The notes beneath the pieces were generated by a model that was not told the DNA's origin, searched no databases, and was given only the letters and a program-made list of their open reading frames with translations. Position numbers and translations under genes: made by a program. From a virus, in IMG/VR virus record IMGVR_UViG_3300043410_001708, positions 42,270 to 106,269 of that record: a stretch of DNA of 64,000 bases. One strand, given 5' to 3'. This document shows, piece by piece, positions 4,454-42,353 of this stretch. The first letter of the stretch is position 1. Each line of letters begins with the position of its first letter.

Positions 4454-4699
4454 TTATTCTCCGTAGATATAAGCAATATCTTCAATCTTCACTACAAAAT
4501 AATCTTGCACTGTTACAGCTTTACCCCAATCTGGTTGCACCACATCACCAATCTGTAACTCAGTAACATCTGGTCCAACTGCAAGTACTTTTGCTCTATC
4601 AGGTTCTTCGGAGTGTCTTAGGATGATTCCTGAAGCGGTCTGTTTAACATTCTCAAGCCGTTCAATCAATACTTTATCGTGCAAGGGTTTAATATTCAT
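4454..4699 (-). CDS. GroES-type co-chaperonin
   Basis: 81 aa with the GroES core: NIKPLHDKVLIERLE, TASGIILR, AKVLAVGPD, IGDVVQPDWGKAV and a C-terminal beta strand. ATG at 4699 was chosen because GAGGAC precedes it and the GroES fold starts there; a longer reading from 4744 adds 15 unrelated residues. The predicted role is to cap GroEL and help fold phage capsid protein, as T4 gp31 does. The region around residues 21-29 (QTASGIILR) corresponds to the mobile loop. Confidence 0.9.
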   Translation of the reverse strand: MNIKPLHDKVLIERLENVKQTASGIILRHSEEPDRAKVLAVGPDVTELQIGDVVQPDWGKAVTVQDYFVVKIEDIAYIYGE

Positions 4700-4785
4700 A
4701 ATGTCCTCAAAATGGAGCGGTCTTCTGCTTTGCTCAGATAACACAAGGGGGTGCCTTGTATCGTACTATTACAAACCGCATTAAA

Positions 4786-4859
4786 TGGAGCGGGATATCA
4801 GAATCGAACTGATGACGAAAGATTGGAAATCTCTAGTTTTGCCATTAAACTAATCCCGC
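4786..4859 (-). tRNA. tRNA-Gly (TCC)
   Basis: 74 nt cloverleaf. Acceptor GCGGGAT/ATCCCGC, anticodon loop TTTCCAA, T loop TTCGATT, encoded TCCA. Confidence 0.93.
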
Positions 4860-4907
4860 ATATAACTATATATGCATCATTTTAAAACACACATAATGCA
4901 TTTTAAA

Positions 4908-4929
4908 ATGAGGACTCTTGCGAGTCCCC
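4908..4929 (-). terminator. hairpin after the Ro60-like gene
   Basis: GGACTC-GCAA-GAGTCC (GNRA-type loop) followed by CATTTTAAAAT on the minus strand, just after the stop at 4936. The T run is short, so it may be a 3' processing or stability hairpin rather than a strong terminator. Confidence 0.45.
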
Positions 4930-4935
4930 ATACCA

Positions 4936-6363
4936 TCACAATACTTTGTAACGGTCATCCATGATGGTTTTAAGCATCACAGATTCTGGTGTAAAGGTTT
5001 CTAAGTCACCCGCCAACAGTGGTTTTACGACTGCTGGTGAGAAACCAGATACCAATGCAGTACCAGAAGTGTCGAACTTTACTGGAGCGTTGCCGTATGC
5101 GGCATTCAAGTTCCAGAATACAACCTTTGGCAAAGTGTATCCTGCTTCTTTGTACTTACGTGCAATCATCTGCATAGCAGAGTCATCATGTCTAACGCAA
5201 GCGTTAAATTGCATGTCTGACAGAATCAATACCATCGCTGGCATTTCTTCTTGTGGCACGCCACCTTTTACTGCTACATCAAGGATTTTTGCAAATGCCT
5301 TGTGTAGGTCGGTAGACATACCCCAATCAGATTTAACCATTTGGTCAATCTTTTGATTGATGTTACCTTTCAAGTGCAACAATTCTGGATTGGTAGAGAA
5401 AGTTAGGAAGGTGTCCTTGAACTTGCCTTCATTCTTATCTGCCAAGTATAGTCCCAAAGAGACTGCTACTTCCAAACAGGTTAGACCTGATTTGGAACCA
5501 TAACCACCTGCAGCGCAGGTCATTGAACCAGAAACATCCACCAAAGGTAGAATGTTTGCATCGCCAACAAAGTTAGGCAAAGCCTCCCATTGTTTTTGCA
5601 CCAAGTCCAATTCGGTCTTGTCGAATTTCATGTAACCACCGATACGGCCTTTCAGCACATCGTATGGGAACACAGCACCTGCATTAACCTTAACTTCTGG
5701 ATTATCACCCTTAACCAACGAAGCAACATATGCTGCATAAGTTGGAGTGTTACGGTTAAAAGCCTTCTTGTAACGGGATGCCGCTACGGAAGGTACGTGT
5801 GAGAAATTGATGGAATCCCAGTCTTTCGCACACATTTGAGTTTCAACCACTTTGGTCATTTCAACCAAAGACTTACGGTAAAACTTTGGGGACATACCAA
5901 AGAACTGACGGATTTCAGCCGCTAGTTTACCTTGGCGAGGAGTCCACTTTGCAGCCAATCCATTCTTCGCACGAAGCGCATCACCCAACATAGTGAATGC
6001 TGCTGACTTCATAACATCAGAATCGAATACAAAAATGTCGTCCCAACGGCCCAATTCAGGAACCTTTGTCAACAATGCTTTTGCGGCTTCTACGTCATTC
6101 TTTTCCAAATAACGCAAGATAGTACGGAACGATTCACGTTCACCGGCACCACCACGAGCATCACGTAACCAAGCAGCAACACGCAAAGCGAGTTCACGGT
6201 TTTCTGCCATTGCAGCTGCGAAAGCAGGCACAATGTTTTTGCCACGGGAAGCACCTGCATTGTAGAACAAATCTACAACTGCATTAGCAGTGGACTTACG
6301 AGCCTTCATACCGTTTGCGGTACGGGCATCTTGATTAACAACGGCATCTACAAAAGTTGACAT
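4936..6363 (-). CDS. Ro60-like RNA-binding protein (TROVE/DUF2828 type with vWA domain)
   Basis: 475 aa. Residues about 20-250 are a helical repeat region with the DUF2828/TROVE-like signature (ALRVAAWLRDARGGAGERESFR, then ELGRWDDI). Residues about 260-450 are a von Willebrand A domain with an intact metal site: DVSGS at 266-270, T351 and D383 in LSDMQF. Ro60 proteins are ring-shaped RNA chaperones that bind misfolded RNA and Y RNAs and act in RNA quality control. ATG 6363 has a GGAG sequence upstream. The Y-RNA-like element E1 ends about 20 bases before the start codon, and a promoter at 6693-6721 would make E2, E1 and this gene one transcript. Binding to these RNAs is inferred from context. 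DUF2828 is close to, but not identical with, classical TROVE. Confidence 0.82.
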   Translation of the reverse strand: MSTFVDAVVNQDARTANGMKARKSTANAVVDLFYNAGASRGKNIVPAFAAAMAENRELALRVAAWLRDARGGAGERESFRTILRYLEKNDVEAAKALLTKVPELGRWDDIFVFDSDVMKSAAFTMLGDALRAKNGLAAKWTPRQGKLAAEIRQFFGMSPKFYRKSLVEMTKVVETQMCAKDWDSINFSHVPSVAASRYKKAFNRNTPTYAAYVASLVKGDNPEVKVNAGAVFPYDVLKGRIGGYMKFDKTELDLVQKQWEALPNFVGDANILPLVDVSGSMTCAAGGYGSKSGLTCLEVAVSLGLYLADKNEGKFKDTFLTFSTNPELLHLKGNINQKIDQMVKSDWGMSTDLHKAFAKILDVAVKGGVPQEEMPAMVLILSDMQFNACVRHDDSAMQMIARKYKEAGYTLPKVVFWNLNAAYGNAPVKFDTSGTALVSGFSPAVVKPLLAGDLETFTPESVMLKTIMDDRYKVL

Positions 6364-6384
6364 AACTTACTCCTCATAAAAAAA

Positions 6385-6507
6385 CAACAGAATACATTTT
6401 TTAGCGCACTACCAATTGTGCTATTCACGCCGAAGCGTAAAACAGGATTCGAACCTGTAACCTCTCCGTTATAAGCGGAAAAATTGTTTGCTGTGAGTAT
6501 TCTAAAA
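6385..6507 (-). ncRNA. Y-RNA-like element E1: circularly permuted tRNA-Ile(UAU) module
   Basis: Read on the minus strand: closing stem AGAATAC (6503-6497) with GTATTCT (6395-6389), and a CACAGCA box. The tRNA parts then come in permuted order: anticodon arm (TTCCG/CGGAG, loop CTTATAA), five-base variable region, T arm (ACAGG-TTCGAAT-CCTGT), acceptor 3' strand TTTACGC, a UUCG tetraloop at 6434-6431, acceptor 5' strand GCGTGAA, TA, and D arm (GCAC-AATTGGTA-GTGC). All four arms pair. There is no free acceptor end and no CCA. A GTTG box follows the closing stem. This fits a Ro60-bound Y RNA that mimics tRNA; a permuted functional tRNA needing cutting and religation is the alternative. Confidence 0.78.
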
Positions 6508-6508
6508 A

Positions 6509-6667
6509 CAACAGGTTAGCTTTCTACTTTTTGTTTACAGTGAGAAATCGAAACTCACCTTCGTTAGGACCATTTCAATAAACACCTTCAAAGGTCGAAA
6601 CCTCCAGTGTTTACCATAGTTACCTAACAGTTCAGTATTATTGAATAATGCTGTAACTAACCTAAAA
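6509..6667 (-). ncRNA. Y-RNA-like element E2, large form
   Basis: Closing stem AGGTTAG (6663-6657) with CTAACCT (6519-6513), a TTACAGCA box and trailing GTTG, as in the other elements. The inside holds a nested stem: GTTAGG/CCTAAC enclosing TAAACAC/GTGTTTA, itself enclosing AGGT-TTCG-ACCT. A T-arm-like hairpin GTGAG/CTCAC containing TTCGATT then leads into CTGTAA, which can pair with TTACAG of the box. Transcription would start about 20 bases upstream, at the promoter 6693-6721. Confidence 0.65.
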
Positions 6668-6692
6668 CCTTTTCAATCTTTCAATACTGTGT

Positions 6693-6721
6693 ATTGTAAC
6701 ACAAAAATTTGTTGTAGTCAA
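6693..6721 (-). promoter_or_regulatory. sigma-70 promoter for E2, E1 and the Ro60-like gene
   Basis: Minus strand TTGACT (6721-6716), 17-base spacer, TACAAT (6698-6693), with TG one base before the -10 (extended -10). The predicted start near 6686 is just ahead of element E2. Confidence 0.75.
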
Positions 6722-6750
6722 GCAGTATGTTGTAAACATACCACAATATT

Positions 6751-6824
6751 TGGTGCCCCATGACAGAATCGAACTGCCGTACCCGGATTACAAAACCGGT
6801 GTAATACCATTATACTAATAGGGC
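6751..6824 (-). tRNA. tRNA-Thr (TGT)
   Basis: 74 nt. Acceptor GCCCTAT/ATGGGGC, anticodon loop TTTGTAA, T loop TTCGATT, encoded ACCA. Confidence 0.92.
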
Positions 6825-6832
6825 AAAAAACT

Positions 6833-6907
6833 TGGAGCGGGTAGTGGGAATCGAACCCACAACTAAACCTTGGCAAGGTCTTGTGTTACCACTAGCACCA
6901 TACCCGC
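6833..6907 (-). tRNA. tRNA-Gly (GCC)
   Basis: 75 nt. Acceptor GCGGGTA/TACCCGC, anticodon loop TTGCCAA, encoded TCCA. The consensus promoter at 6917-6945 would start transcription two or three bases before its 5' end. Confidence 0.93.
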
Positions 6908-6916
6908 ATCATGTGT

Positions 6917-6945
6917 ATTATATATGCTTTACAAACAATTGTCAA
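6917..6945 (-). promoter_or_regulatory. perfect consensus sigma-70 promoter inside the tRNA operon
   Basis: TTGACA (6945-6940), 17-base spacer, TATAAT (6922-6917) on the minus strand. It lies between tRNA-Leu(TAA) and tRNA-Gly(GCC), so the last two tRNAs of the operon can be transcribed separately. Confidence 0.85.
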
Positions 6946-6965
6946 GCACATTTTTAAAAAATATT

Positions 6966-7049
6966 TGGTACGAGTAACCGGAGTCGAACCGGTACGCACA
7001 AGGCGGCAGATTTTAAGTCTGCTGGGTCTACCAATTCCCCCATACTCGC
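6966..7049 (-). tRNA. tRNA-Leu (TAA)
   Basis: 84 nt class II tRNA. Acceptor GCGAGTA/TACTCGT, anticodon loop CTTAAAA, variable arm CGCCTTGTGCG, encoded ACCA. Confidence 0.92.
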
Positions 7050-7050
7050 A

Positions 7051-7635
7051 TCACATGGCAGGTCCGTTTCCATTACGGAAACCGACCTCACCACCTTCTT
7101 CTTTGATTCGTTTCATAACATCTTCAAAAAGAATAGGACGAAAATCTGTTTGTTCAACACAAACACAATGATAACGAACATCTGGTGTGTCCAGTTCTTG
7201 ACCTCCGTTCCATGTCATCATCACACGACCTGTATGAAGGTGACCGTGAATGTTTGTTCCGAAACGACCAAGACTGGCGGGATGAATTGGAATATGTGAA
7301 AGAATCATTCCGTTCATTACATGATACGCACGAAGTTCACGGAAGTGTATTCTATATTCATCATCACGGAAGATATCGTGGTTACCACGAATAAGAACTT
7401 TATCACCGTTAAGTCTATGCATAATGCTAAGTGCTTTACGATTGATTACAACATCACCAAGATGATATACTTTATCAGTTGGCTTTACTGTTTCGTTCCA
7501 ACGCTTAACCATTTCTTCATCCATTTCATTTGGATCGGTCCATGGTCTAATCTTTTCACCTGTTATGGAGTCGGTGAATCTACACACACCAGCGTGACCA
7601 AAGTGTGTGTCACTTACTAAAAATACTGATGGCAT
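7051..7635 (-). CDS. metallophosphoesterase
   Basis: 194 aa calcineurin-like phosphoesterase. The metal-site motifs occur in order: DTHFGH (start), HLGDV, RGNHD, SHIPIH and HGHLH. The substrate is unknown; relatives in phages are annotated as phosphoesterases. ATG 7635 is preceded by a Shine-Dalgarno sequence (AGGAGT); the longer frame would run through the upstream tRNA-Arg. The gene sits inside the tRNA operon, ending one base before tRNA-Leu(TAA) begins, so it is probably transcribed with the tRNAs. Confidence 0.88.
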   Translation of the reverse strand: MPSVFLVSDTHFGHAGVCRFTDSITGEKIRPWTDPNEMDEEMVKRWNETVKPTDKVYHLGDVVINRKALSIMHRLNGDKVLIRGNHDIFRDDEYRIHFRELRAYHVMNGMILSHIPIHPASLGRFGTNIHGHLHTGRVMMTWNGGQELDTPDVRYHCVCVEQTDFRPILFEDVMKRIKEEGGEVGFRNGNGPAM

Positions 7636-7653
7636 AATAAACTCCTGAAAAAA

Positions 7654-7728
7654 TGGCCCGGCGTGAGGGAATCGAACCCCCATTCGCACTTTAGAAGAAT
7701 GCTGTCCTATCCATTGAACGAACGCCAG
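7654..7728 (-). tRNA. tRNA-Arg (TCT)
   Basis: 75 nt. Acceptor CTGGCGT/ACGCCGG, anticodon loop CTTCTAA, encoded GCCA. This is the conventional Arg(UCU) tRNA; a second UCU arm occurs in element E3. Confidence 0.92.
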
Positions 7729-7733
7729 AAAAA

Positions 7734-8174
7734 TCATACTCGGATGTATTCGTAATTAACTGTTTCTTCATTTTCTCTAAAAACAATAGCGCCGTTCTTC
7801 AAGTGAAAACGCTTTGCCATTTCAGTTTTTGGAGATAATGTCACAAATCTTTTTATGTATGGCATATTATTTTCTATGTGTGATACTGCATCAAATATAA
7901 GTGTTCCACCAGCACCTGGTGCATAACTCCATATTGTATAAAATACCGCAATCTCTGGATCGTTTACCTTTTCAAACAATTCAGATTCTTTTGTCGGAAC
8001 ATTTGTCTGATAACTTACGCATGTGATTGCTAATACTTTACCATTTGTATCCCGAAGAACAAAAATATCTTTGTTATTACCTACTCTTTCCGTAGTTGGA
8101 ATGTTAGGCCTGACAGGATCTTCATCCAATAAATTAAAAAAACTATCTGTGATGGATTTTATAATATGTAACAT
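7734..8174 (-). CDS. putative GNAT-like acetyltransferase-fold protein
   Basis: 146 aa. Strands such as IFVLRDTNGKVLAITCVSYQ, the central AVFYTIWSYAPGAGGTLIFDAV and a late TEMAKRFHLKNGAIVF resemble the GNAT acyl-CoA-binding layout, but I see no clear catalytic residue. Similar proteins occur in T4-like phages without known function. It lies between tRNA-Arg(TCT) and tRNA-Leu(TAG) on the same strand and is probably co-transcribed with them. Confidence 0.55.
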   Translation of the reverse strand: MLHIIKSITDSFFNLLDEDPVRPNIPTTERVGNNKDIFVLRDTNGKVLAITCVSYQTNVPTKESELFEKVNDPEIAVFYTIWSYAPGAGGTLIFDAVSHIENNMPYIKRFVTLSPKTEMAKRFHLKNGAIVFRENEETVNYEYIRV

Positions 8175-8191
8175 GATAACTTAAATATAAT

Positions 8192-8268
8192 GGTGCCCCA
8201 GAGGAGACTCGAACTCCTAAAATTTGGTTTCTAAGACCAACACGTATACCAATTCCGTCACCGGGGCA
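8192..8268 (-). tRNA. tRNA-Leu (TAG), short variable region
   Basis: 77 nt. Acceptor GCCCCGG/CTGGGGC, large Leu/Ser-type D loop, anticodon loop CTTAGAA, encoded ACCA. The variable region is only about five bases (ATTTT) instead of a long arm, which is odd for leucine. Confidence 0.85.
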
Positions 8269-8280
8269 ATAAATACTTAT

Positions 8281-8505
8281 ATGATACCTTACGAACAAAG
8301 ACAAACAGTAAAACCACTTTATGAGTTATTCTCAAATGAAACATATGTGCCTCATGCTTATTATTGTATTGAATCTGATTTTATCGAATCATATGTTACT
8401 GAGATAAAATCTTTTAATGATGATGAAATATATATTCAACCTGAAAAAGAGTTTGTCTTAACAACATTAAAACAAGTTGGTGCTCCTACTAAGAATCGAA
8501 CTTAG
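8281..8505 (+). CDS. possible 74-aa plus-strand gene between tRNAs
   Basis: ATG 8281 opens a protein-like ORF (MIPYEQRQTVKPLYELFSNET... DDEIYIQPEKEF), mostly hydrophilic with some alternating pattern. It is antisense to the spacer, and its last nine or so codons run through tRNA-Thr(GGT). An AATAAATAC sequence just upstream resembles a late promoter but no Shine-Dalgarno sequence is seen. The 210-base gap it fills has no other feature. Not recognised. Confidence 0.4.
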   Translation: MIPYEQRQTVKPLYELFSNETYVPHAYYCIESDFIESYVTEIKSFNDDEIYIQPEKEFVLTTLKQVGAPTKNRT

Positions 8506-8551
8506 GATACATCCTTACCATGGATGTGGTATGCCATTTACCTATAAGAGC
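8478..8551 (-). tRNA. tRNA-Thr (GGT)
   Basis: 74 nt. Acceptor GCTCTTA/TAGGAGC, anticodon loop ATGGTAA with stem CATCC/GGATG, T loop TTCGATT, encoded ACCA. Confidence 0.9.
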
Positions 8552-8556
8552 ATGAT

Positions 8557-8631
8557 TGGTGGGTCGTCAGAGAATCAAACTCTGTTCTTCCGGTTAAGAG
8601 CCGGTTGCTTCATCACTTAAGCTTACAACCC
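8557..8631 (-). tRNA. tRNA-Lys (CTT)
   Basis: 75 nt. Acceptor GGGTTGT/ACGACCC, anticodon loop CTCTTAA with stem ACCGG/CCGGA, encoded ACCA. Confidence 0.9.
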
Positions 8632-8634
8632 ATA

Positions 8635-8711
8635 TGGTACCCAAGGTGGGATTCGAGCCCACATAATCTTGCTTTTGAGACAAGCACGTATACCAATTCC
8701 GTCACTTGGGT
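8635..8711 (-). tRNA. tRNA-Leu (CAA), short variable region
   Basis: 77 nt. Acceptor ACCCAAG/CTTGGGT, anticodon loop CTCAAAA, encoded ACCA. As in tRNA-Leu(TAG), the D arm is of leucine type but the variable region is only five bases (ATTAT). Confidence 0.85.
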
Positions 8712-8716
8712 ATATA

Positions 8717-8820
8717 CAACAGGATAGTTTTTTTACAGTGGGAATTGAACCCACAAGGTTTGCTTAGAAGGCAAATTGCGAACCATTCGCATGTGAATTT
8801 TTTGCTGAACCTATCCTAAA
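8717..8820 (-). ncRNA. Y-RNA-like element E3 carrying a tRNA-Arg-like module
   Basis: Closing stem AGGATAG (8817-8811) with CTATCCT (8727-8721), a GTTCAGCA box and trailing GTTG. A tRNA-like cloverleaf in normal order sits at the tip, joined through A-rich linkers. Because both ends are inside the closing stem, the module has no free acceptor end or CCA unless processed. Confidence 0.68.
8731..8798 (-). tRNA. tRNA-Arg (TCT)-like module inside E3
   Basis: D arm GCGA-ATGGT-TCGC, anticodon arm TTTGC-CTTCTAA-GCAAA and T arm GTGGG-TTCAATT-CCCAC are all well formed. The acceptor stem is weak (TTCACA against TGTAAA, one mismatch) and CCA is absent. It is more likely a tRNA mimic than a working tRNA, especially since a normal Arg(UCU) tRNA exists at 7654-7728. 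Confidence 0.4.
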
Positions 8821-8823
8821 ACT

Positions 8824-8899
8824 TGGTGCTGCCTAGTAGAATCGAACTACTTTCCGAGGTTCTTCAGACCCCTGCTATGACCACATCAGCTAAAGCAGC
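8824..8899 (-). tRNA. tRNA-Phe (GAA)
   Basis: 76 nt. Acceptor GCTGCTT/AGGCAGC, anticodon loop CTGAAGA, T loop TTCGATT, encoded ACCA. Confidence 0.9.
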
Positions 8900-8907
8900 A
8901 TATTGAA

Positions 8908-9074
8908 TTTGTAAGTATTGGGACCTCCCTCATTTCCCAACATTTTACCGGTATTTTCTGTGAAGCGGCCGACCGGTTAGAGGTACGTAGTAATAGTTGA
9001 TACTTGGCATCGGCAAAGCACTATCCTCATTCTTGTATGCCTACAAAAACTTTCTCAACATCTACACTTACAAA
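8908..9074 (-). ncRNA. structured RNA spacer between tRNA-Val and tRNA-Phe
   Basis: About 167 bases closed by an 11-bp stem (9074-9064 with 8918-8908, one G-U). Inner pairings include GTTGA/TCAAC around GGCAT/ATGCC, ACCGGT paired with a second ACCGGT, and TTGGGA/TCCCAA. No ORF and no tRNA fold are seen. The amount of nested pairing suggests a real RNA structure; its role is unknown. Confidence 0.5.
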
Positions 9075-9077
9075 ACT

Positions 9078-9152
9078 TGGTACCTTGTGACGGGATCGAA
9101 CCGCCGACCTTCTCCTTGTAAGGGAGACACTCTACCGCTGAGTTAACAAGGC
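9078..9152 (-). tRNA. tRNA-Val (TAC)
   Basis: 75 nt. Acceptor GCCTTGT/ACAAGGT, anticodon loop CTTACAA, encoded ACCA. Confidence 0.92.
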
Positions 9153-9165
9153 ATAAAATTTACTT

Positions 9166-9240
9166 TGGGGAGATATATGAGAATCGAACTCATGATAACG
9201 GAATCACAACCCGTGGTTTTGCCACTAAACTAATATCTCC
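9166..9240 (-). tRNA. tRNA-His (GTG)
   Basis: 75 nt including G-1. Acceptor GAGATAT/ATATCTC with the extra G-1 opposite C73, the histidine identity element. Anticodon loop TTGTGAT, encoded CCA. The flanks continue pairing for ten more bases on each side (9241-9250 with 9159-9168, overlapping the 3' end), an unusually extended acceptor stem. Confidence 0.9.
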
Positions 9241-9288
9241 CCAAAGTAAACTTTGGAATTTTTAACCGTGTTTATTCACGGGGGTCTG

Positions 9289-9777
9289 TTAGACCTGCAA
9301 AGCTTCTTGTTCTGCCAAGATTCTTTTCAATCTGTCAGCACAAAAACTTGCAGCTGGTGCGTCTGGTTTAACCATAGGTGTCATGTTACATGTACCCTTG
9401 ATATAACCAATCGCTTGTTGTACAACACATGAACTTCCGTACAAGTCATCTTTGTTTAAGTCCAAATGAACTTCAACATGGAAATCTTCTAATACATCAG
9501 CCAAGTCTTGGAACAATTCTGAAACCTTATACACTTCGGTCATTAACCGCATTGCAGGTTTACTTTTCTTATGGTCATAATCCAACTCACGTTGAACGAA
9601 ACCAAAAATCTTACAACCATGGCGGCCATCAATATGAACTACGACAGCCAAAGCATAGTCTGCATACCATACACCGTTTACACGGATACGTTCTGAGTCA
9701 GCACCCAAATATACTTTCGTATCTGGTCCTTGACTTGCAAGGAATTGCTTAACTTCTTGTATGTCGAACTTTTTCAT
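9289..9777 (-). CDS. YkuK-like (DUF458) RNase H-fold protein
   Basis: 162 aa. The layout matches the YkuK/DUF458 family: an early VYLGADSERI strand, a middle VHLDLNKDDLYGSS motif and a C-terminal VKPDAPAASFCADRL motif. These are predicted RNase H-fold nucleases of unknown substrate; the acidic residues D, D, D and E are present. ATG 9777 is preceded by AAGGTGA; the longer frame runs through tRNA-Trp. Being inside the tRNA operon, it may act on RNA, but that is inference. Confidence 0.72.
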   Translation of the reverse strand: MKKFDIQEVKQFLASQGPDTKVYLGADSERIRVNGVWYADYALAVVVHIDGRHGCKIFGFVQRELDYDHKKSKPAMRLMTEVYKVSELFQDLADVLEDFHVEVHLDLNKDDLYGSSCVVQQAIGYIKGTCNMTPMVKPDAPAASFCADRLKRILAEQEALQV

Positions 9778-9807
9778 ATCAATCACCTTTCTTTTTTTTA
9801 CTAACAC

Positions 9808-9881
9808 TGGCATCCCGACAGGGACTCGAACCCCGACCAACAGTTTTGGAGACTGGTATGCTGCCATTACACTATCGAGAT
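9808..9881 (-). tRNA. tRNA-Trp (CCA)
   Basis: 74 nt. Acceptor ATCTCGA/TCGGGAT, anticodon loop CTCCAAA, T loop TTCGAGT, encoded GCCA. Confidence 0.92.
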
Positions 9882-9887
9882 ATAATA

Positions 9888-9955
9888 CAACAGGATAGAT
9901 TTTACTTTTCAAGTTACAAGTTTGAAGTATTTTATTGCTGTTACTATCCTAAAAA
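9888..9955 (-). ncRNA. Y-RNA-like element E4, minimal form
   Basis: Closing stem AGGATAG (9950-9944) with CTATCCT (9898-9892), an AACAGCAATAAA box and trailing GTTG. The inside is only a short imperfect hairpin (ACTTCAA against TTGAAAAGT). There is no tRNA module, so the conserved stem and box are probably the functional core of the family. Confidence 0.65.
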
Positions 9956-10029
9956 TGGTCCTCAGAACAAGAATCGAACTTGTGATGGCCGGTTATCAGC
10001 CGACTGTTATACCATTTAACTATCCGAGG
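9956..10029 (-). tRNA. tRNA-Ile (GAT)
   Basis: 74 nt. Acceptor CCTCGGA/TCTGAGG, anticodon loop CTGATAA, T loop TTCGATT, encoded ACCA. Confidence 0.92.
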
Positions 10030-10033
10030 AATA

Positions 10034-10109
10034 TGGAGGGTCTTGAGGGATTCAAACCCCCGACCAATTGCTTCGTAGGCAACTACTCTGTTCACTGAGC
10101 TAAAGACCC
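10034..10109 (-). tRNA. tRNA-Arg (ACG)
   Basis: 76 nt. Acceptor GGGTCTT/AAGACCC, anticodon loop CTACGAA, encoded TCCA. The wobble A would need deamination to inosine by the host enzyme. Confidence 0.92.
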
Positions 10110-10115
10110 ATAATC

Positions 10116-10190
10116 TGGTGGTTCAGGTGAGAATCGAACTCACACAAGGCACCGTATGAAGATGCTGCACTGCCACTATGCTACTGAACC
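10116..10190 (-). tRNA. tRNA-Met (CAT)
   Basis: 75 nt. Acceptor GGTTCAG/CTGAACC, anticodon loop TTCATAC, encoded ACCA. It has no initiator features, so it is probably elongator methionine. Confidence 0.88.
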
Positions 10191-10195
10191 AAATT

Positions 10196-10270
10196 TGGTG
10201 GACCGAGGGGGAATCGAACCCCCAACTGTGACTTGCAAGGCCACTGTGTTCCCAATTATACCATCAGCCC
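10196..10270 (-). tRNA. tRNA-Ala (TGC)
   Basis: 75 nt. Acceptor GGGCTGA/TCGGTCC, anticodon loop CTTGCAA, encoded ACCA. A G-C at the first pair but no obvious G3-U70 was seen: the third pair is G with C. Confidence 0.88.
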
Positions 10271-10326
10271 AAATTTGTTGTTGACAATTTATCTCATTAT
10301 ACGCCGTCAACAAAGGCGAGTATTAC

Positions 10327-10400
10327 TGGTCTCGGTGGCAAGAATCGAACTTGCGCCACATGCTCCCAAAGCACGGATGATACCATTTCACCACACCGAG
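10327..10400 (-). tRNA. tRNA-Pro (TGG)
   Basis: 74 nt. Acceptor CTCGGTG/CACCGAG, anticodon loop TTTGGGA, encoded ACCA. Confidence 0.92.
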
Positions 10401-10406
10401 AAAATA

Positions 10407-10473
10407 CAACAGGATCGTTTTTGTCGCTAGACATCCAAAAGTTAGCTTGTTTATTGCTGAACCGATCCTAAAA
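10407..10473 (-). ncRNA. Y-RNA-like element E5, minimal form
   Basis: Closing stem AGGATCG (10469-10463) with CGATCCT (10417-10411), GTTCAGCAATAAA box and trailing GTTG. Both stem strands differ from E4 by a compensatory change (A-T to C-G), which supports real pairing. The inside has a GCTA/TAGC hairpin only. Confidence 0.65.
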
Positions 10474-10474
10474 C

Positions 10475-10549
10475 TGGCTCCACAGGCAGGGATCGAACCT
10501 ACGACCAATTGATTAACAGTCAACTGCACTACCGCTGTGCTACTGTGGA
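10475..10549 (-). tRNA. tRNA-Asn (GTT)
   Basis: 75 nt. Acceptor TCCACAG/CTGTGGA, anticodon loop CTGTTAA, encoded GCCA. Confidence 0.93.
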
Positions 10550-10556
10550 ATATATC

Positions 10557-10631
10557 TGGCGGTCCCAAGGGGTAACGATCCCCTTCTTTATGCGTGACAG
10601 GCATACGTGCGTCCATGAACACTTTGAGACC
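10557..10631 (-). tRNA. tRNA-Asp (GTC)
   Basis: 75 nt. Acceptor GGTCTCA/TGGGACC, anticodon arm TATGC-CTGTCAC-GCATA, encoded GCCA. The T loop is atypical (ATCGTTA). Confidence 0.85.
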
Positions 10632-10635
10632 AAAT

Positions 10636-10828
10636 ATTAGTACAAGCTACTGATTTTCCACGTCAGCCCTTGATTGAGCGGTTTCTCTGTCCATCCCTTT
10701 TATCTGGTACCTGTGTGCAGAGGGATACTGCCTATCAGAGCCTGAGTATTTCTCTCGCTAACGGTTTTCTGCCACCGGATCTCTATCGTTAATCAAACGC
10801 TACTTTAACGAAAAGTAGTAACGAGATT
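10636..10828 (-). ncRNA. structured RNA spacer between tRNA-Tyr and tRNA-Asp
   Basis: About 190 bases, no ORF. Nested stems on the minus strand: ATCTCGTTA with TAACGATAGAGAT around CTACTTT/AAAGTAG; CGGT/ACCG; and CTCTG/CAGAG enclosing ATCCC/GGGAT with an inner CTG-CACA-CAG. It begins directly after the CCA of tRNA-Tyr. Function unknown. Confidence 0.5.
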
Positions 10829-10915
10829 TGGTGGAGACGGTGTGAGTCGAACACACAATGCCCTGAGGGCGGCGGATTTACAGTCCACTGGGGTTACCAA
10901 TTTTCCTACATCTCC
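10829..10915 (-). tRNA. tRNA-Tyr (GTA)
   Basis: 87 nt class II tRNA. Acceptor GGAGATG/CGTCTCC, anticodon loop CTGTAAA, variable arm CCGCCCTCAGGGC, encoded ACCA. Confidence 0.93.
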
Positions 10916-10923
10916 AAATTTTT

Positions 10924-10998
10924 TGGTAGGGGCACAGAGAATCGAACTCTGATTATCTGGTTAAAAGCCAGGTACTTTCGCCGTTAAGTTATACCCCC
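10924..10998 (-). tRNA. tRNA-Lys (TTT)
   Basis: 75 nt. Acceptor GGGGGTA/TGCCCCT, anticodon loop CTTTTAA, encoded ACCA. Confidence 0.93.
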
Positions 10999-11004
10999 AT
11001 AATT

Positions 11005-11132
11005 TACCATTTGTTTTGCTGACGCACTATATGCTATGCTTCAACGGAATAGCTGCAGCGTTACCGTTTATTAACATAGTTACTCAGCATTGAACGTTTC
11101 TGCTGTGGCTTACATCAGCAAAACAAATGGTA
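11005..11132 (-). ncRNA. structured RNA with perfect 18-bp stem between tRNA-Glu and tRNA-Lys
   Basis: 11005-11022 and 11115-11132 are perfect inverted repeats of 18 bases. The 92 bases between form further stems: CAGCA/TGCTG, ACTATG/CATAG with CATATAGT nearby, and AACGG/CCGTT. One arm of the long stem contains the 3' ACCA of tRNA-Glu, so folding and tRNA maturation must compete. Role unknown. Confidence 0.6.
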
Positions 11133-11202
11133 CACCTAAGGAGAATCGAACTCCTCTTTCCGCCTTGAAAGGGCAGCGTCCTAACCGATAGACGATAGGT
11201 GC
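11128..11202 (-). tRNA. tRNA-Glu (TTC)
   Basis: 75 nt. Acceptor GCACCTA/TAGGTGT, anticodon loop CTTTCAA, encoded ACCA. The CCA end is shared with the 18-bp stem of the following structured RNA. Confidence 0.92.
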
Positions 11203-11207
11203 AAAAA

Positions 11208-11231
11208 ACTACAACAAATTTTTAAAGAACA
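11208..11231 (-). promoter_or_regulatory. boxA-like repeat, copy 2
   Basis: Minus strand begins TGTTCTTTAAAAATTTG and is identical over 24 bases to copy 1 at 12077-12100. The start resembles bacterial rRNA boxA (TGCTCTTTAACA), the NusB/NusE antitermination site. It lies between a strong promoter and tRNA-Glu. Confidence 0.55.
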
Positions 11232-11259
11232 TTTGATTGATTTCTCAATTCATAGATGA

Positions 11260-11288
11260 AGTATAACACAACCATGAATCTCTGTCAA
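11260..11288 (-). promoter_or_regulatory. sigma-70 promoter for the downstream tRNA operon
   Basis: Minus strand TTGACA (11288-11283), 17-base spacer, TATACT (11265-11260). The predicted start near 11253 precedes boxA-like copy 2 and tRNA-Glu. Confidence 0.82.
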
Positions 11289-11316
11289 CCAGTGTGTTGT
11301 ATTTCTACAACGTGTT

Positions 11317-11392
11317 TGGAGTAGGTGACAGGAATCGAACCTGCATACAAGTGGTTTGCAATCACTTCCCTAGCCTTTCGGGTCACACCTAC
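11317..11392 (-). tRNA. tRNA-Cys (GCA)
   Basis: 76 nt. Acceptor GTAGGTG/CACCTAC, anticodon loop TTGCAAA (one A-C mismatch closes the loop), encoded TCCA. Its first four bases overlap the 3' end of the upstream small gene. Confidence 0.88.
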
Positions 11393-11628
11393 ACTAATTT
11401 TTTCCTTGAACTACGGTGTGTTTCATCACGCCGCATAGTCCAATCGTAAGAGTTACCATCTGGTAACTTCTTATCTTTAACTTCATCATATCCAAACTTA
11501 CCAACGAATTCCATTTCACCATTAGTGATTGTTACGAATTCGTTAACAGTCTTGGCAAAGAACATTGCACCTGACAATGTTTCATGTTTCCATTCTTTCA
11601 ATTTTGTTTTTACTATCCACATACTCAT
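11389..11628 (-). CDS. hypothetical protein, 79 aa
   Basis: MSMWIVKTKLKEWKHETLSG... is a small basic protein with a beta-rich middle (EFVTITNGEMEFVGKFGYDEV) and a basic tail (RRDETHRSSRKK). Not recognised. It sits inside the tRNA operon between the class II tRNA at 11637 and tRNA-Cys, whose first bases it overlaps. Confidence 0.62.
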   Translation of the reverse strand: MSMWIVKTKLKEWKHETLSGAMFFAKTVNEFVTITNGEMEFVGKFGYDEVKDKKLPDGNSYDWTMRRDETHRSSRKKLV

Positions 11629-11636
11629 CTTTCATT

Positions 11637-11728
11637 TGGTACCAGCGGTGAGAATCGAACTCACTCAAGAACGCTAATCTGGCGCTAAAAGGTGTATAAG
11701 ACCTCTCTGACTACCAAGTCTCGCTGGC
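11637..11728 (-). tRNA. class II tRNA with TAT anticodon (identity uncertain)
   Basis: 92 nt. Acceptor GCCAGCG/CGCTGGT, anticodon stem AGAGGT/ACCTTT with loop CTTATAC, T arm GTGAG-TTCGATT-CTCAC, encoded ACCA. It has a long variable arm (AGCGC/GCGTT), typical of Leu, Ser or Tyr rather than Ile, although TAT reads the Ile codon AUA. A73 with a long arm fits leucine or tyrosine charging. Confidence 0.75.
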
Positions 11729-11730
11729 AT

Positions 11731-11820
11731 TGGTGGAGAGTCAGGGAGTCGAACCCTGTGACCTACTTTCGTAAATCTACGGATTAGCAATCCGCTGCAT
11801 TACCATCCTGCCCACTCTCC
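11731..11820 (-). tRNA. tRNA-Ser (GCT)
   Basis: 90 nt class II. Acceptor GGAGAGT/ACTCTCC, anticodon loop TTGCTAA, long variable arm, encoded ACCA. The discriminator is A, whereas G is usual for serine. Confidence 0.9.
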
Positions 11821-11826
11821 GAATTT

Positions 11827-11916
11827 TGGTGGAAGCGGTGAGATTCGAACTCACGGACCCTTTCGGATCGGCAGTTTTCAAGACTGCTGCAATAAACCGG
11901 ACTCTGCCACACTTCC
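11827..11916 (-). tRNA. tRNA-Ser (TGA)
   Basis: 90 nt class II. Acceptor GGAAGTG/CGCTTCC, anticodon loop CTTGAAA, variable arm GATCCGAAAGGGTCC, encoded ACCA. Confidence 0.92.
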
Positions 11917-11922
11917 ATATAG

Positions 11923-11989
11923 AAACACACTACTGGCTATACACTCAGCGTCCCAAGTGCTACCAGAATCTAACTGGCGTAATGTGTTT
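11923..11989 (-). ncRNA. compact structured RNA spacer between tRNA-Gln and tRNA-Ser
   Basis: 67 bases closed by an 11-bp stem (11989-11979 with 11933-11923, one G-U). Two inner hairpins: CCAG/CTGG and CACT/AGTG. It looks like a three-way junction. Function unknown; it may be a processing spacer. Confidence 0.5.
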
Positions 11990-11994
11990 TTATA

Positions 11995-12070
11995 TGGCAG
12001 GGGTTATCAGATTCGAACTGATGATGACGATTTCAAAGACCGTTGCCTTAGGCCACTAGGCGAAACCCCA
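11995..12070 (-). tRNA. tRNA-Gln (TTG)
   Basis: 76 nt. Acceptor TGGGGTT/AACCCCT, anticodon loop CTTTGAA, encoded GCCA. The weak first pair (U1-U72) and G73 are glutamine identity features. It is the first tRNA after the promoter and boxA-like copy 1. Confidence 0.92.
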
Positions 12071-40388: not shown

Positions 40389-42353
40389 TTAGTCAAATAC
40401 ACTGTGTGGAAGATTCCAACATCCGTTTGTAAATATTAAAGTCAAAACAGCAAATGCTTGATTTCCTCTAAATGGTAACCACCAAGATGCCTGACCTTCA
40501 TATATGTAACCATTACCATCAGACCAACGTGCATTTGCAATTGTCATGCTTGTATATTCATTACCAGCAAAAGGACTAGATGGAACAATATACATGATTT
40601 GACCTTCAACACCATCAGATAAATGATATTGATTCGGTCCGTTACTACTTTGTGGTGTCAATTTATTAACAGAGACAGTTAAATCTAATTCAAATGGATC
40701 AGTTTCATTCCATTCTGCACTAGCTGTTCTGGTGGTTATTGAACCAACATTTGCAACACCTTTGCCACTAAATTCTATAGCCAAATCTGAACCAGAAGAA
40801 GGTATCACTACAGTACCGTTGGAATTAAAATTCCAATTTTGTGTAAACACATTTAACGTCTGTTCATTTTCAGGACTTGGGTTTTGATATAAAACAACAT
40901 TCATTGTGTATGCATAATTGGTATTTTCTGCAATCGTTAATGTTGTATTGCCTGAACCAACTGTTGAACTTGTTGAAGTTCTGGCTTCTGGTACAGTAAC
41001 ATATGTAAAATCACCCCATGATGTTGATTCTGCACCAAAATAAGTGCCAGACAAATTACCATCTATAGGCAATTGAAATACTGTTGTAATTGCTGCATTG
41101 CTTTGTGGAAAACTATAACCTGTTCCAACAATAAAATTGCCTCTAATATCTATTTCATGTGGTGTTGGTGTTGATGAGCCAGCACCAAGAATTTGAAGTG
41201 CATTGGCCCATGCAATAGAACCATCATCCGCATCTATCTTATAAACACAGAAACCATTTTGTTCATTTGATACTTGACCGTGGCCCATTGCATATAGATA
41301 ACCATTACTATATTTTATGGTTACTATTTCTGGATTATTTCCAACACCAAGAATTTCTTTTTCCCAAACTAATGAATTATCTGGTTCAAATTTGTAAATG
41401 TTTGTGCTTGTTGCTGCATACCAATTGTTTGATGAATCATAACTCAAAGAAACTATTGTATCATCATTATCATTTACTTTGTTTGACCACTGATAAACAC
41501 CTTCTGTATCAAACTTATGCACAAAACCATTATCAGAACCAACGTAAATACCACCTCTATTTGGCAACGCAATCACTGCCTCTGCATTTGGAATGTCTGC
41601 ATTAAAATGTGTGAAATATAATTCACCAGTTATATCTAAACCTGTGATTAAGTTGTGACCGCCAACATAGTAAGGAAATTCTTCATCATCAACAACAATA
41701 CCGTATGAATCAACTGAATCTGAAACTAATGTGCTCCATACATTTTGACCAAGATAATTAAATTTTGTAACAAGTGTTGAATTGTCATCTGGTATATTTG
41801 TCAATAAATACACGTTGTTATTTGCATCAACAGCAACACCAGCAGAATAACTATCCAATAAAACACTATCCACATTTGCGGCTGGTACCGATTTTCTCCA
41901 GTAAATATTTCCGTATGGATCAAATTTAATAAGGGTTGATTGTACCAAATTTGTGACGGTATTTGGTGTTGTCATTGAAACTAAAATGTTATTTTCACTA
42001 TCATAAGCAACACCACTTGGCCATGAATAACCATTTTGTGAAAGTGTTTCACCAAATAACATACCCCATGCTTTACGACTATAATGGTCATTAGCAATTT
42101 GTACTTCCGTATTGCTATACATTATAGTTTTATCAAACAAAATGTTACCTAATGATGCAGTGTTTGCTTTGTTAAAGGCATTTTGTGCTAGATTTTGGTT
42201 GGTTTCATAATAAGTATTAGATGTATTAGCATTGTTTGAGACTGCGGTATACAGCTCGGTGAAATTACTATTTGTTTTGATAAAGGCGCCTCTTAACGTA
42301 TCGCCTTTACCATCGTTTGCTCTAATACCAATATTGATAGTTTGTTTAGACAT
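40389..42353 (-). CDS. large virion protein with beta-propeller-like repeats
   Basis: 654 aa. Residues about 1-40 (INIGIRANDGKGDTLRGAFIKTNSNFTELY) are a module shared by many fibre-type proteins of T4-like aquatic phages. About residues 100-430 hold repeats such as SGVAYDSENNILVS, AGVAVDANNNVYLLT and WSNKVNDNDDTIVSLSYD, as in beta-propellers. The C-terminal part is beta-rich. It sits between gp15 and gp16, an unusual place. A virion surface or decoration role is inferred. Confidence 0.68.
   Translation of the reverse strand: MSKQTINIGIRANDGKGDTLRGAFIKTNSNFTELYTAVSNNANTSNTYYETNQNLAQNAFNKANTASLGNILFDKTIMYSNTEVQIANDHYSRKAWGMLFGETLSQNGYSWPSGVAYDSENNILVSMTTPNTVTNLVQSTLIKFDPYGNIYWRKSVPAANVDSVLLDSYSAGVAVDANNNVYLLTNIPDDNSTLVTKFNYLGQNVWSTLVSDSVDSYGIVVDDEEFPYYVGGHNLITGLDITGELYFTHFNADIPNAEAVIALPNRGGIYVGSDNGFVHKFDTEGVYQWSNKVNDNDDTIVSLSYDSSNNWYAATSTNIYKFEPDNSLVWEKEILGVGNNPEIVTIKYSNGYLYAMGHGQVSNEQNGFCVYKIDADDGSIAWANALQILGAGSSTPTPHEIDIRGNFIVGTGYSFPQSNAAITTVFQLPIDGNLSGTYFGAESTSWGDFTYVTVPEARTSTSSTVGSGNTTLTIAENTNYAYTMNVVLYQNPSPENEQTLNVFTQNWNFNSNGTVVIPSSGSDLAIEFSGKGVANVGSITTRTASAEWNETDPFELDLTVSVNKLTPQSSNGPNQYHLSDGVEGQIMYIVPSSPFAGNEYTSMTIANARWSDGNGYIYEGQASWWLPFRGNQAFAVLTLIFTNGCWNLPHSVFD

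Follow-up and report, generated by a model that had tools for sequence, protein, structure and literature searches.

We analysed a 64,000-nucleotide (nt) window of viral DNA (positions 42,270 to 106,269 of the IMG/VR record IMGVR_UViG_3300043410_001708), in which the gene for a Ro60-like protein is encoded together with a family of Y-RNA-like small RNAs that carry a common terminal motif. The original prediction, made from the sequence of this window, had described a promoter, two structured RNAs (E2 and E1) and the gene as one transcription unit; this locus observation is confirmed, and the locus is larger than first described. The predicted Ro-like fold, the constant RNA motif, the covariation, the linkage of RNAs and gene, and the anticodon-arm geometry are results of the analysis. 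As to function, we propose, with about even confidence, a Ro60/Y-type ribonucleoprotein (RNP) that displays tRNA mimics and so captures host enzymes whose targets are tRNA anticodon loops, chiefly the anticodon nucleases of defence. The core of the locus is made up as follows:

4936..6363, minus strand: gene for the Ro60-like protein, 475 amino acids (aa), ATG start; DUF2828 N-terminal and DUF7788/vWA C-terminal, PHROG_850
6386..6503, minus strand: RNA E1, 118-nt, Y-like, a circularly permuted tRNA inside the terminal stem AGAATAC/GTATTCT (fold, covariation, Rfam YrlA)
6464..6480, minus strand: anticodon-arm-like hairpin of E1, UUCCG-CUUAUAA-CGGAG, anticodon UAU (fold, covariation)
6442..6458, minus strand: T arm of E1 (permuted-tRNA scan, covariation)
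6424..6441, minus strand: acceptor stem of E1, closed by a UUCG tetraloop (permuted-tRNA scan, covariation)
6406..6421, minus strand: D arm of E1 (permuted-tRNA scan, covariation)
6510..6663, minus strand: RNA E2, 154-nt, Y-like, with the terminal stem AGGTTAG/CTAACCT, a conserved UGGAG...UUGAAGG core hairpin and a GUGAGUUUCGAUUUCUCAC hairpin

The open reading frame (ORF) 6363-4936(-) is matched in Pfam by DUF7788 (6.6e-47) and DUF2828 (1.3e-20) and is a member of PHROG_850, "RNA-binding protein", at 1.4e-139; NCBIfam gave no match. An AlphaFold model of the 475-aa protein, built with 25 relatives in the alignment, was compared with the PDB using Foldseek, and exactly two structures matched below 1e-3: Rsr of D. 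radiodurans (2NVO; 2.5e-7) and Xenopus Ro (1YVR; 8.7e-7). The full-length protein is spanned in each case, and the model has a HEAT-like ring plus the vWA fold. The protein belongs to the DUF2828/DUF7788 family, is set apart from TROVE by profile and has, as modelled, the Ro fold that its designation as Ro60-like had implied. The vWA metal site, predicted to be intact, is so: the residues of the metal-ion-dependent adhesion site DxSxS..T..D (D276, S278, S280, T351 and D383) show no variation across 26 sequences. Homologues were found in 672 phage records from many hosts, none of them more than 60% identical, and DUF2828 proteins of similar structure also occur in giant viruses.

The two RNAs between gene and promoter have like ends, TTTAG-N5-N(2-4)-CAGCAA ... 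N5'-CTGTTG, where AG-N5 pairs with N5'-CT. The pattern TTTAG-N8-CAGCA occurs five times in the window (0.22 expected), always on the strand of the gene, and besides E1 and E2 the motif marks three RNAs within the tRNA array (8817-8718, 9950-9889 and 10469-10408). E1 and E2 had been recognised in the original prediction, whereas these three further members of the same family had been overlooked. The array and its additional RNAs are:

4786..12070, minus strand: array of about 27 tRNA genes, holding the Y-like RNAs and the gene
8718..8817, minus strand: 100-nt Y-like RNA; D arm, anticodon arm UUUGC-CUUCUAA-GCAAA (UCU), T arm
9889..9950, minus strand: 62-nt Y-like RNA with a hairpin around CUUGUAA (anticodon UGU)
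10408..10469, minus strand: 62-nt Y-like RNA with a GCUAAC...GUCUAGCGAC insert, possibly a pseudoknot

In the 100-nt RNA, the Y stem replaces the acceptor stem; Rfam calls a tRNA at 8798-8730 (35.8 bits), which is the interior of this motif RNA, and ARAGORN makes no call. The RNA at 10408-10469 and its counterparts in relatives belong to a short class that recurs, GCUAACUUU(U)GGAUGUCUAGCGAC, which has no anticodon arm and may be a pseudoknot.

The association of motif and gene extends far beyond the window. In 80 related viral contigs, the motif occurs about 230 times in the sense orientation and never in antisense, 226 times upstream and six times downstream of the gene. Wherever enough upstream sequence was at hand, a motif RNA lies at most 700 nt upstream in 71 of 72 loci, the nearest one at a median distance of 23 nt from the gene start, which upholds the claim that Y-RNA-like RNAs are encoded with the gene. 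When the RNA pattern alone was searched for, 118 stretches were returned, 67 of which include the gene, co-oriented in all 67; among the 50 remaining records the gene is present elsewhere in 21, including every record of at least 90 kb. The variable terminal stem is fully paired (5/5) in 304 of 325 motif RNAs, which comprise 36 different stems, against 36 RNAs expected when partners are shuffled; since these 325 were selected by the two constant flanks alone, without any demand on pairing, the test is not circular. Mobile inverted repeats are ruled out, since from copy to copy the stems covary but the flanks do not change.

E1 folds better than its shuffles (z=-3.1), into a terminal stem that encloses four hairpins, and ends 22 nt before the ATG of the gene (about 20 had been stated). 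The order of its arms, anticodon - T - acceptor (UUCG) - D, implies that E1 is a tRNA circularly permuted between the D and anticodon arms, and thus carries the tRNA-like module anticipated from bacterial Y RNAs. The Rfam model of YrlA (RF02553) matches it with 36.5 bits (E 2.1e-6), below the gathering cut-off of 69 bits. In an alignment of 21 diverged sequences, 99.1% of the cells are paired as against 78.8% after shuffling, a percentage inflated by the choice of most sequences with a descriptor that demanded pairing of the T, acceptor and D stems; this descriptor made no demand on the anticodon arm, and for the terminal stem there is the separate test above, in which pairing was not required. 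Both sides have changed in 20 of the 28 pairs, and the covariation of 0.488 (0.148 in shuffled alignments) was reached by none of 500 shuffles; when the structure is slid along the alignment, only 33-46% is paired. An artefact of tandem tRNAs was rejected as the source of the permuted module: chance cases have CCA in the "loop" and score 11-15.9, as compared to 17.0 for E1.

The structure claimed for E2 is less evident from folding alone (z=-1.6, a modest value). Its terminal stem is of the E1 type and is kept, with compensatory changes, across 15 diverged relatives; in the alignment of these 15 E2-type RNAs, 11 of the 21 predicted pairs show such changes. The covariation expected of both RNAs in relatives was, accordingly, found. 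E2 could not be identified as a known RNA, Rfam yielding nothing beyond tRNA-like and chance-level matches. The conserved GUGAGUUUCGAUUUCUCAC hairpin, with AAAAAGUAG after it, is seen again in several longer RNAs that are unlike in other respects, of which that at 6510-6663 is one example.

Motif RNAs stand beside DUF2828 genes in phages of Synechococcus, E. coli (Felix-O1-like), Listeria, Aeromonas, Campylobacter, Enterococcus, Staphylococcus, Fusobacterium and Mycobacterium; amongst Vibrio phages, BUCT194 has them with the gene and KVP40 at a distance. Over 18 loci, the motif was counted 42 times in sense and eight times in antisense (about six expected per strand). The Felix-O1-like phage bumzen (MN850635), in which the protein is a vWFA protein, has four motif RNAs. 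In Stenotrophomonas phage DLP6 and the jumbo phage CBB, motif RNAs with 6-7-bp stems are located at a distance from the gene, within tRNA arrays. A covariance model of E1, built solely from relatives of the window, matches RNAs of DLP6 (63.7 bits), Mycobacterium phage Faith1 (58.8), E. coli phage bumzen (57.1), Enterococcus phage EF1 (55.1) and a Synechococcus phage (55.0); weaker matches, which partly overlap tandem tRNAs, were excluded from the count. No convincing local motif RNA was found near the gene in Salmonella phage Munch, Aeromonas phage phiAS5, Ochrobactrum phage OC or the 735-kb LR756503. In Citrobacter phage Ci1, a feature annotated "tRNA-Pseudo-AAC" (L202:8012-8125) overlaps both an E1-model match (7942-8056) and CAGCA-type motif sequence.

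What the RNAs present between their constant ends is most apparent in the short ones (<70 nt, n=196). A hairpin of 5 bp with a 7-nt loop occurs in 73% of these, as against 10% after shuffling, and loop lengths of 6 and 8 are near background. Among 79 distinct hairpins, 61 have U33 and 61 have A37; 59 of the 61 hairpins with U33 carry U or G at position 34, which resembles tRNA wobble positions. The anticodons include UUU, UGU, UCU, UGA, GGA, GUU, UAU, GUA and UGG. Thirteen of 55 distinct loops (24%) are identical to a loop of a phage tRNA, compared with 2% for shuffled loops, whereas the stems of these hairpins are not copies of tRNA stems; fragments of tRNA genes are ruled out by this disparity. 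RNAs of the 100-nt class combine D, anticodon and T arms, the acceptor being replaced by the constant stem, and the E1-type RNAs are permuted tRNAs.

In the mechanism that we propose, the DUF2828/vWA protein with its Ro60 fold would bind a constant RNA element, probably the covarying 7-bp terminal stem followed by 5' (A/U)CAGCAA and 3' CUGUUG. Docked in this way, each RNA would bear a different display domain, i.e., a lone anticodon arm, a tRNA body with the constant stem as its acceptor, a permuted whole tRNA or, in E2, a non-tRNA domain. The mimics held by the RNP may then capture host enzymes that work on anticodon loops, anti-phage anticodon nucleases foremost, and during infection the tRNAs on which the phage depends would be shielded. 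That the tRNA-like domain of YrlA could be a competitive inhibitor of an anticodon nuclease has been raised for Salmonella (PMC7790460), and phages escape tRNA-cutting defences by supplying tRNAs (PMC11555353).

Several results weigh against this proposal. About one third of the short RNAs are without a clean U33 anticodon hairpin, and E2 and the RNAs of 200-240 nt carry other domains, with no Rfam identity and no evident tRNA part, so that serving as a tRNA decoy cannot be the sole job of the family. No nuclease or defence system could be linked to any of the anticodons. On the side of the protein, the anticipated TROVE/DUF2828 match was obtained for DUF2828 and not for TROVE, which has no match to the ORF at E<=1 in Pfam; a sequence search of the PDB with the protein profile found no relative and did not reach Ro60; and the AlphaFold model is of moderate confidence (predicted local distance difference test, pLDDT, 68.8; predicted template modelling score, pTM, 0.61).

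A machine for RNA decay or quality control is conceivable though rather unlikely: the RNAs would link the Ro-like protein to an exoribonuclease, for instance PNPase, and act as a gate to its RNA channel, on the model of Deinococcus, where Rsr is tethered to PNPase by a Y RNA (PMC7790460), and the tRNA-like parts would be structural or recruit tRNA-handling factors. The Ro60 fold detected by Foldseek and the YrlA-like topology of E1 are consistent with such a machine, but it leaves unexplained why there are many anticodon loops with U33/A37 and a wobble-like position 34, and why there are several distinct RNAs per phage. We consider improbable a platform for tRNA repair or maturation, on which RNA ligase, kinase/phosphatase and CCA-adding enzyme would be gathered by tRNA-like baits in the phage tRNA array. 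Genes for RNA ligase, tRNA-ligase or CCA transferase do occur within a few kb in Listeria phage cka15, Munch, CBB and Ci1, and a phosphoesterase gene adjoins the RNAs in the window; the mimics, however, are without a free acceptor end, and no RNA_ligase family member is present in the possibly incomplete 106-kb source record. That the anticodon arms sequester or regulate not nucleases but aminoacyl-tRNA synthetases, tRNA-modifying enzymes or specific mRNAs is very improbable: real tRNA loops on differing stems would suit any reader of anticodon loops, but the data indicate no specific partner.

Bacterial Rsr/YrlA (RF02553) is one of the nearest known counterparts of the phage system, and the two share a Ro-fold protein with vWA, an adjoining Y RNA gene and a permuted tRNA module whose acceptor stem ends in a loop; E1 has the YrlA-type succession of T arm, acceptor and D arm on a stem. 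The phage system differs in that its protein is DUF2828/DUF7788 and not TROVE by profile, that the RF02553 consensus is without the CAGCAA/CUGUUG terminal motif, and that the phage RNAs have an extra anticodon arm and are several per genome. Y RNAs of mycobacteriophages have been described (Chen et al. 2014, as cited in PMC12282133), and the RNA of Faith1 that fits the E1 model (L207:7533-7657) has in common with E1-type RNAs TACAGCAA, an anticodon arm around CUGUUAA and the permuted tRNA.

A second likeness is with the Class I RNAs of Dictyostelium, described as dictyostelid-only and of unknown function, which measure 42-65 nt and combine a conserved 5' G and a 6-bp terminal stem that covaries with an 11-nt motif and, at the 3' end, CUGU (PMC7919456); the 11-nt motif reads CCUUACAGCAA in the Rfam consensus RF01414. 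The short phage RNAs show a covarying terminal stem, a 5' G paired with the C of CUGU, and a CUUACAGCAA-type motif, and several of them match RF01414 over the full model length with 38.6, 36.4 and 36.2 bits, below the gathering cut-off of 41.5 bits, as do RNAs of Vibrio and Aeromonas phages (31.2 and 28.4 bits). The known binder of Class I RNA is, in contrast, an RRM protein, Rnp1A. The architecture is the same in both groups, and common descent or convergence are alike possible. With more doubt than conviction, we envisage a phage-wide class of RNPs: many small RNAs would dock, via stem and CAGCAA, on a single Ro60-fold protein, which would present swappable anticodon arms and permuted tRNAs as decoys to counter immunity by tRNA cleavage, and the dictyostelid Class I RNAs would form a eukaryotic branch of this RNA family.

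Phage proteins that now bear the labels "hypothetical", "vWFA" or "DUF2828", hundreds in number, become candidate Ro60 RNPs with identifiable RNA partners, for which a likely docking element can be named and anticodon display offers a testable reason for the RNAs. The proposal also provides a lead on the function of Dictyostelium Class I RNAs, and a phage of E. coli K-12 would lend itself to testing it.

As for precedence, the novelty surmised in the original prediction holds in part. Phage Ro/TROVE-like proteins were reported earlier (PMC7824862, PMC7765460) and, like the mycobacteriophage Y RNAs, are already known. Apparently new are the motif common to the RNAs, their occurrence as a multi-RNA array, the display of anticodon arms, and the breadth; no report of the motif, the wider multi-RNA arrays or the anticodon arms was found in the open-access literature, which is weak evidence, key Y RNA papers being outside it. 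In 2025, Y RNAs were suspected beside CKA15_055, the Listeria phage homologue, the protein of which was detected in purified virions; the suspected loci, CKA15_059-061, gave the most abundant phage transcripts, their identity being left open (PMC12282133). Three motif RNAs lie directly upstream of CKA15_055, but the CKA15_059-061 transcripts cannot be these, as the loci fall inside a match to ROOL RNA (L210:6869-7420 in Listeria phage cka15; 90.1 bits, cut-off 99.1). Phage P100 has a similar ROOL RNA match (L204:4468-5019; 86 bits, cut-off 99.1).

The promoter placed ahead of E2 can be given as:

6693..6721, minus strand: sigma-70-like promoter TTGACT-17-TACAAT with TG, upstream of E2 (10/12 consensus positions)

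Besides agreeing with the consensus at 10 of 12 positions, the site has the TG; its class, however, is not enriched in the region, where 13 promoter-like sites were found and 13.6 are expected from shuffles. A perfect sigma-70 consensus, TTGACA-17-TATAAT, is located at 6917-6945 (-), just upstream of tRNA-Gly(gcc). A comparison with the PADLOC defence models gave no match. A GroES-like gene adjoins motif RNAs and tRNAs both in the window (4454-4702) and in Stenotrophomonas phage DLP6 (L241:1332-1580). The phage of the window is a myovirus, as indicated by PHROGs for major head, portal and sheath.
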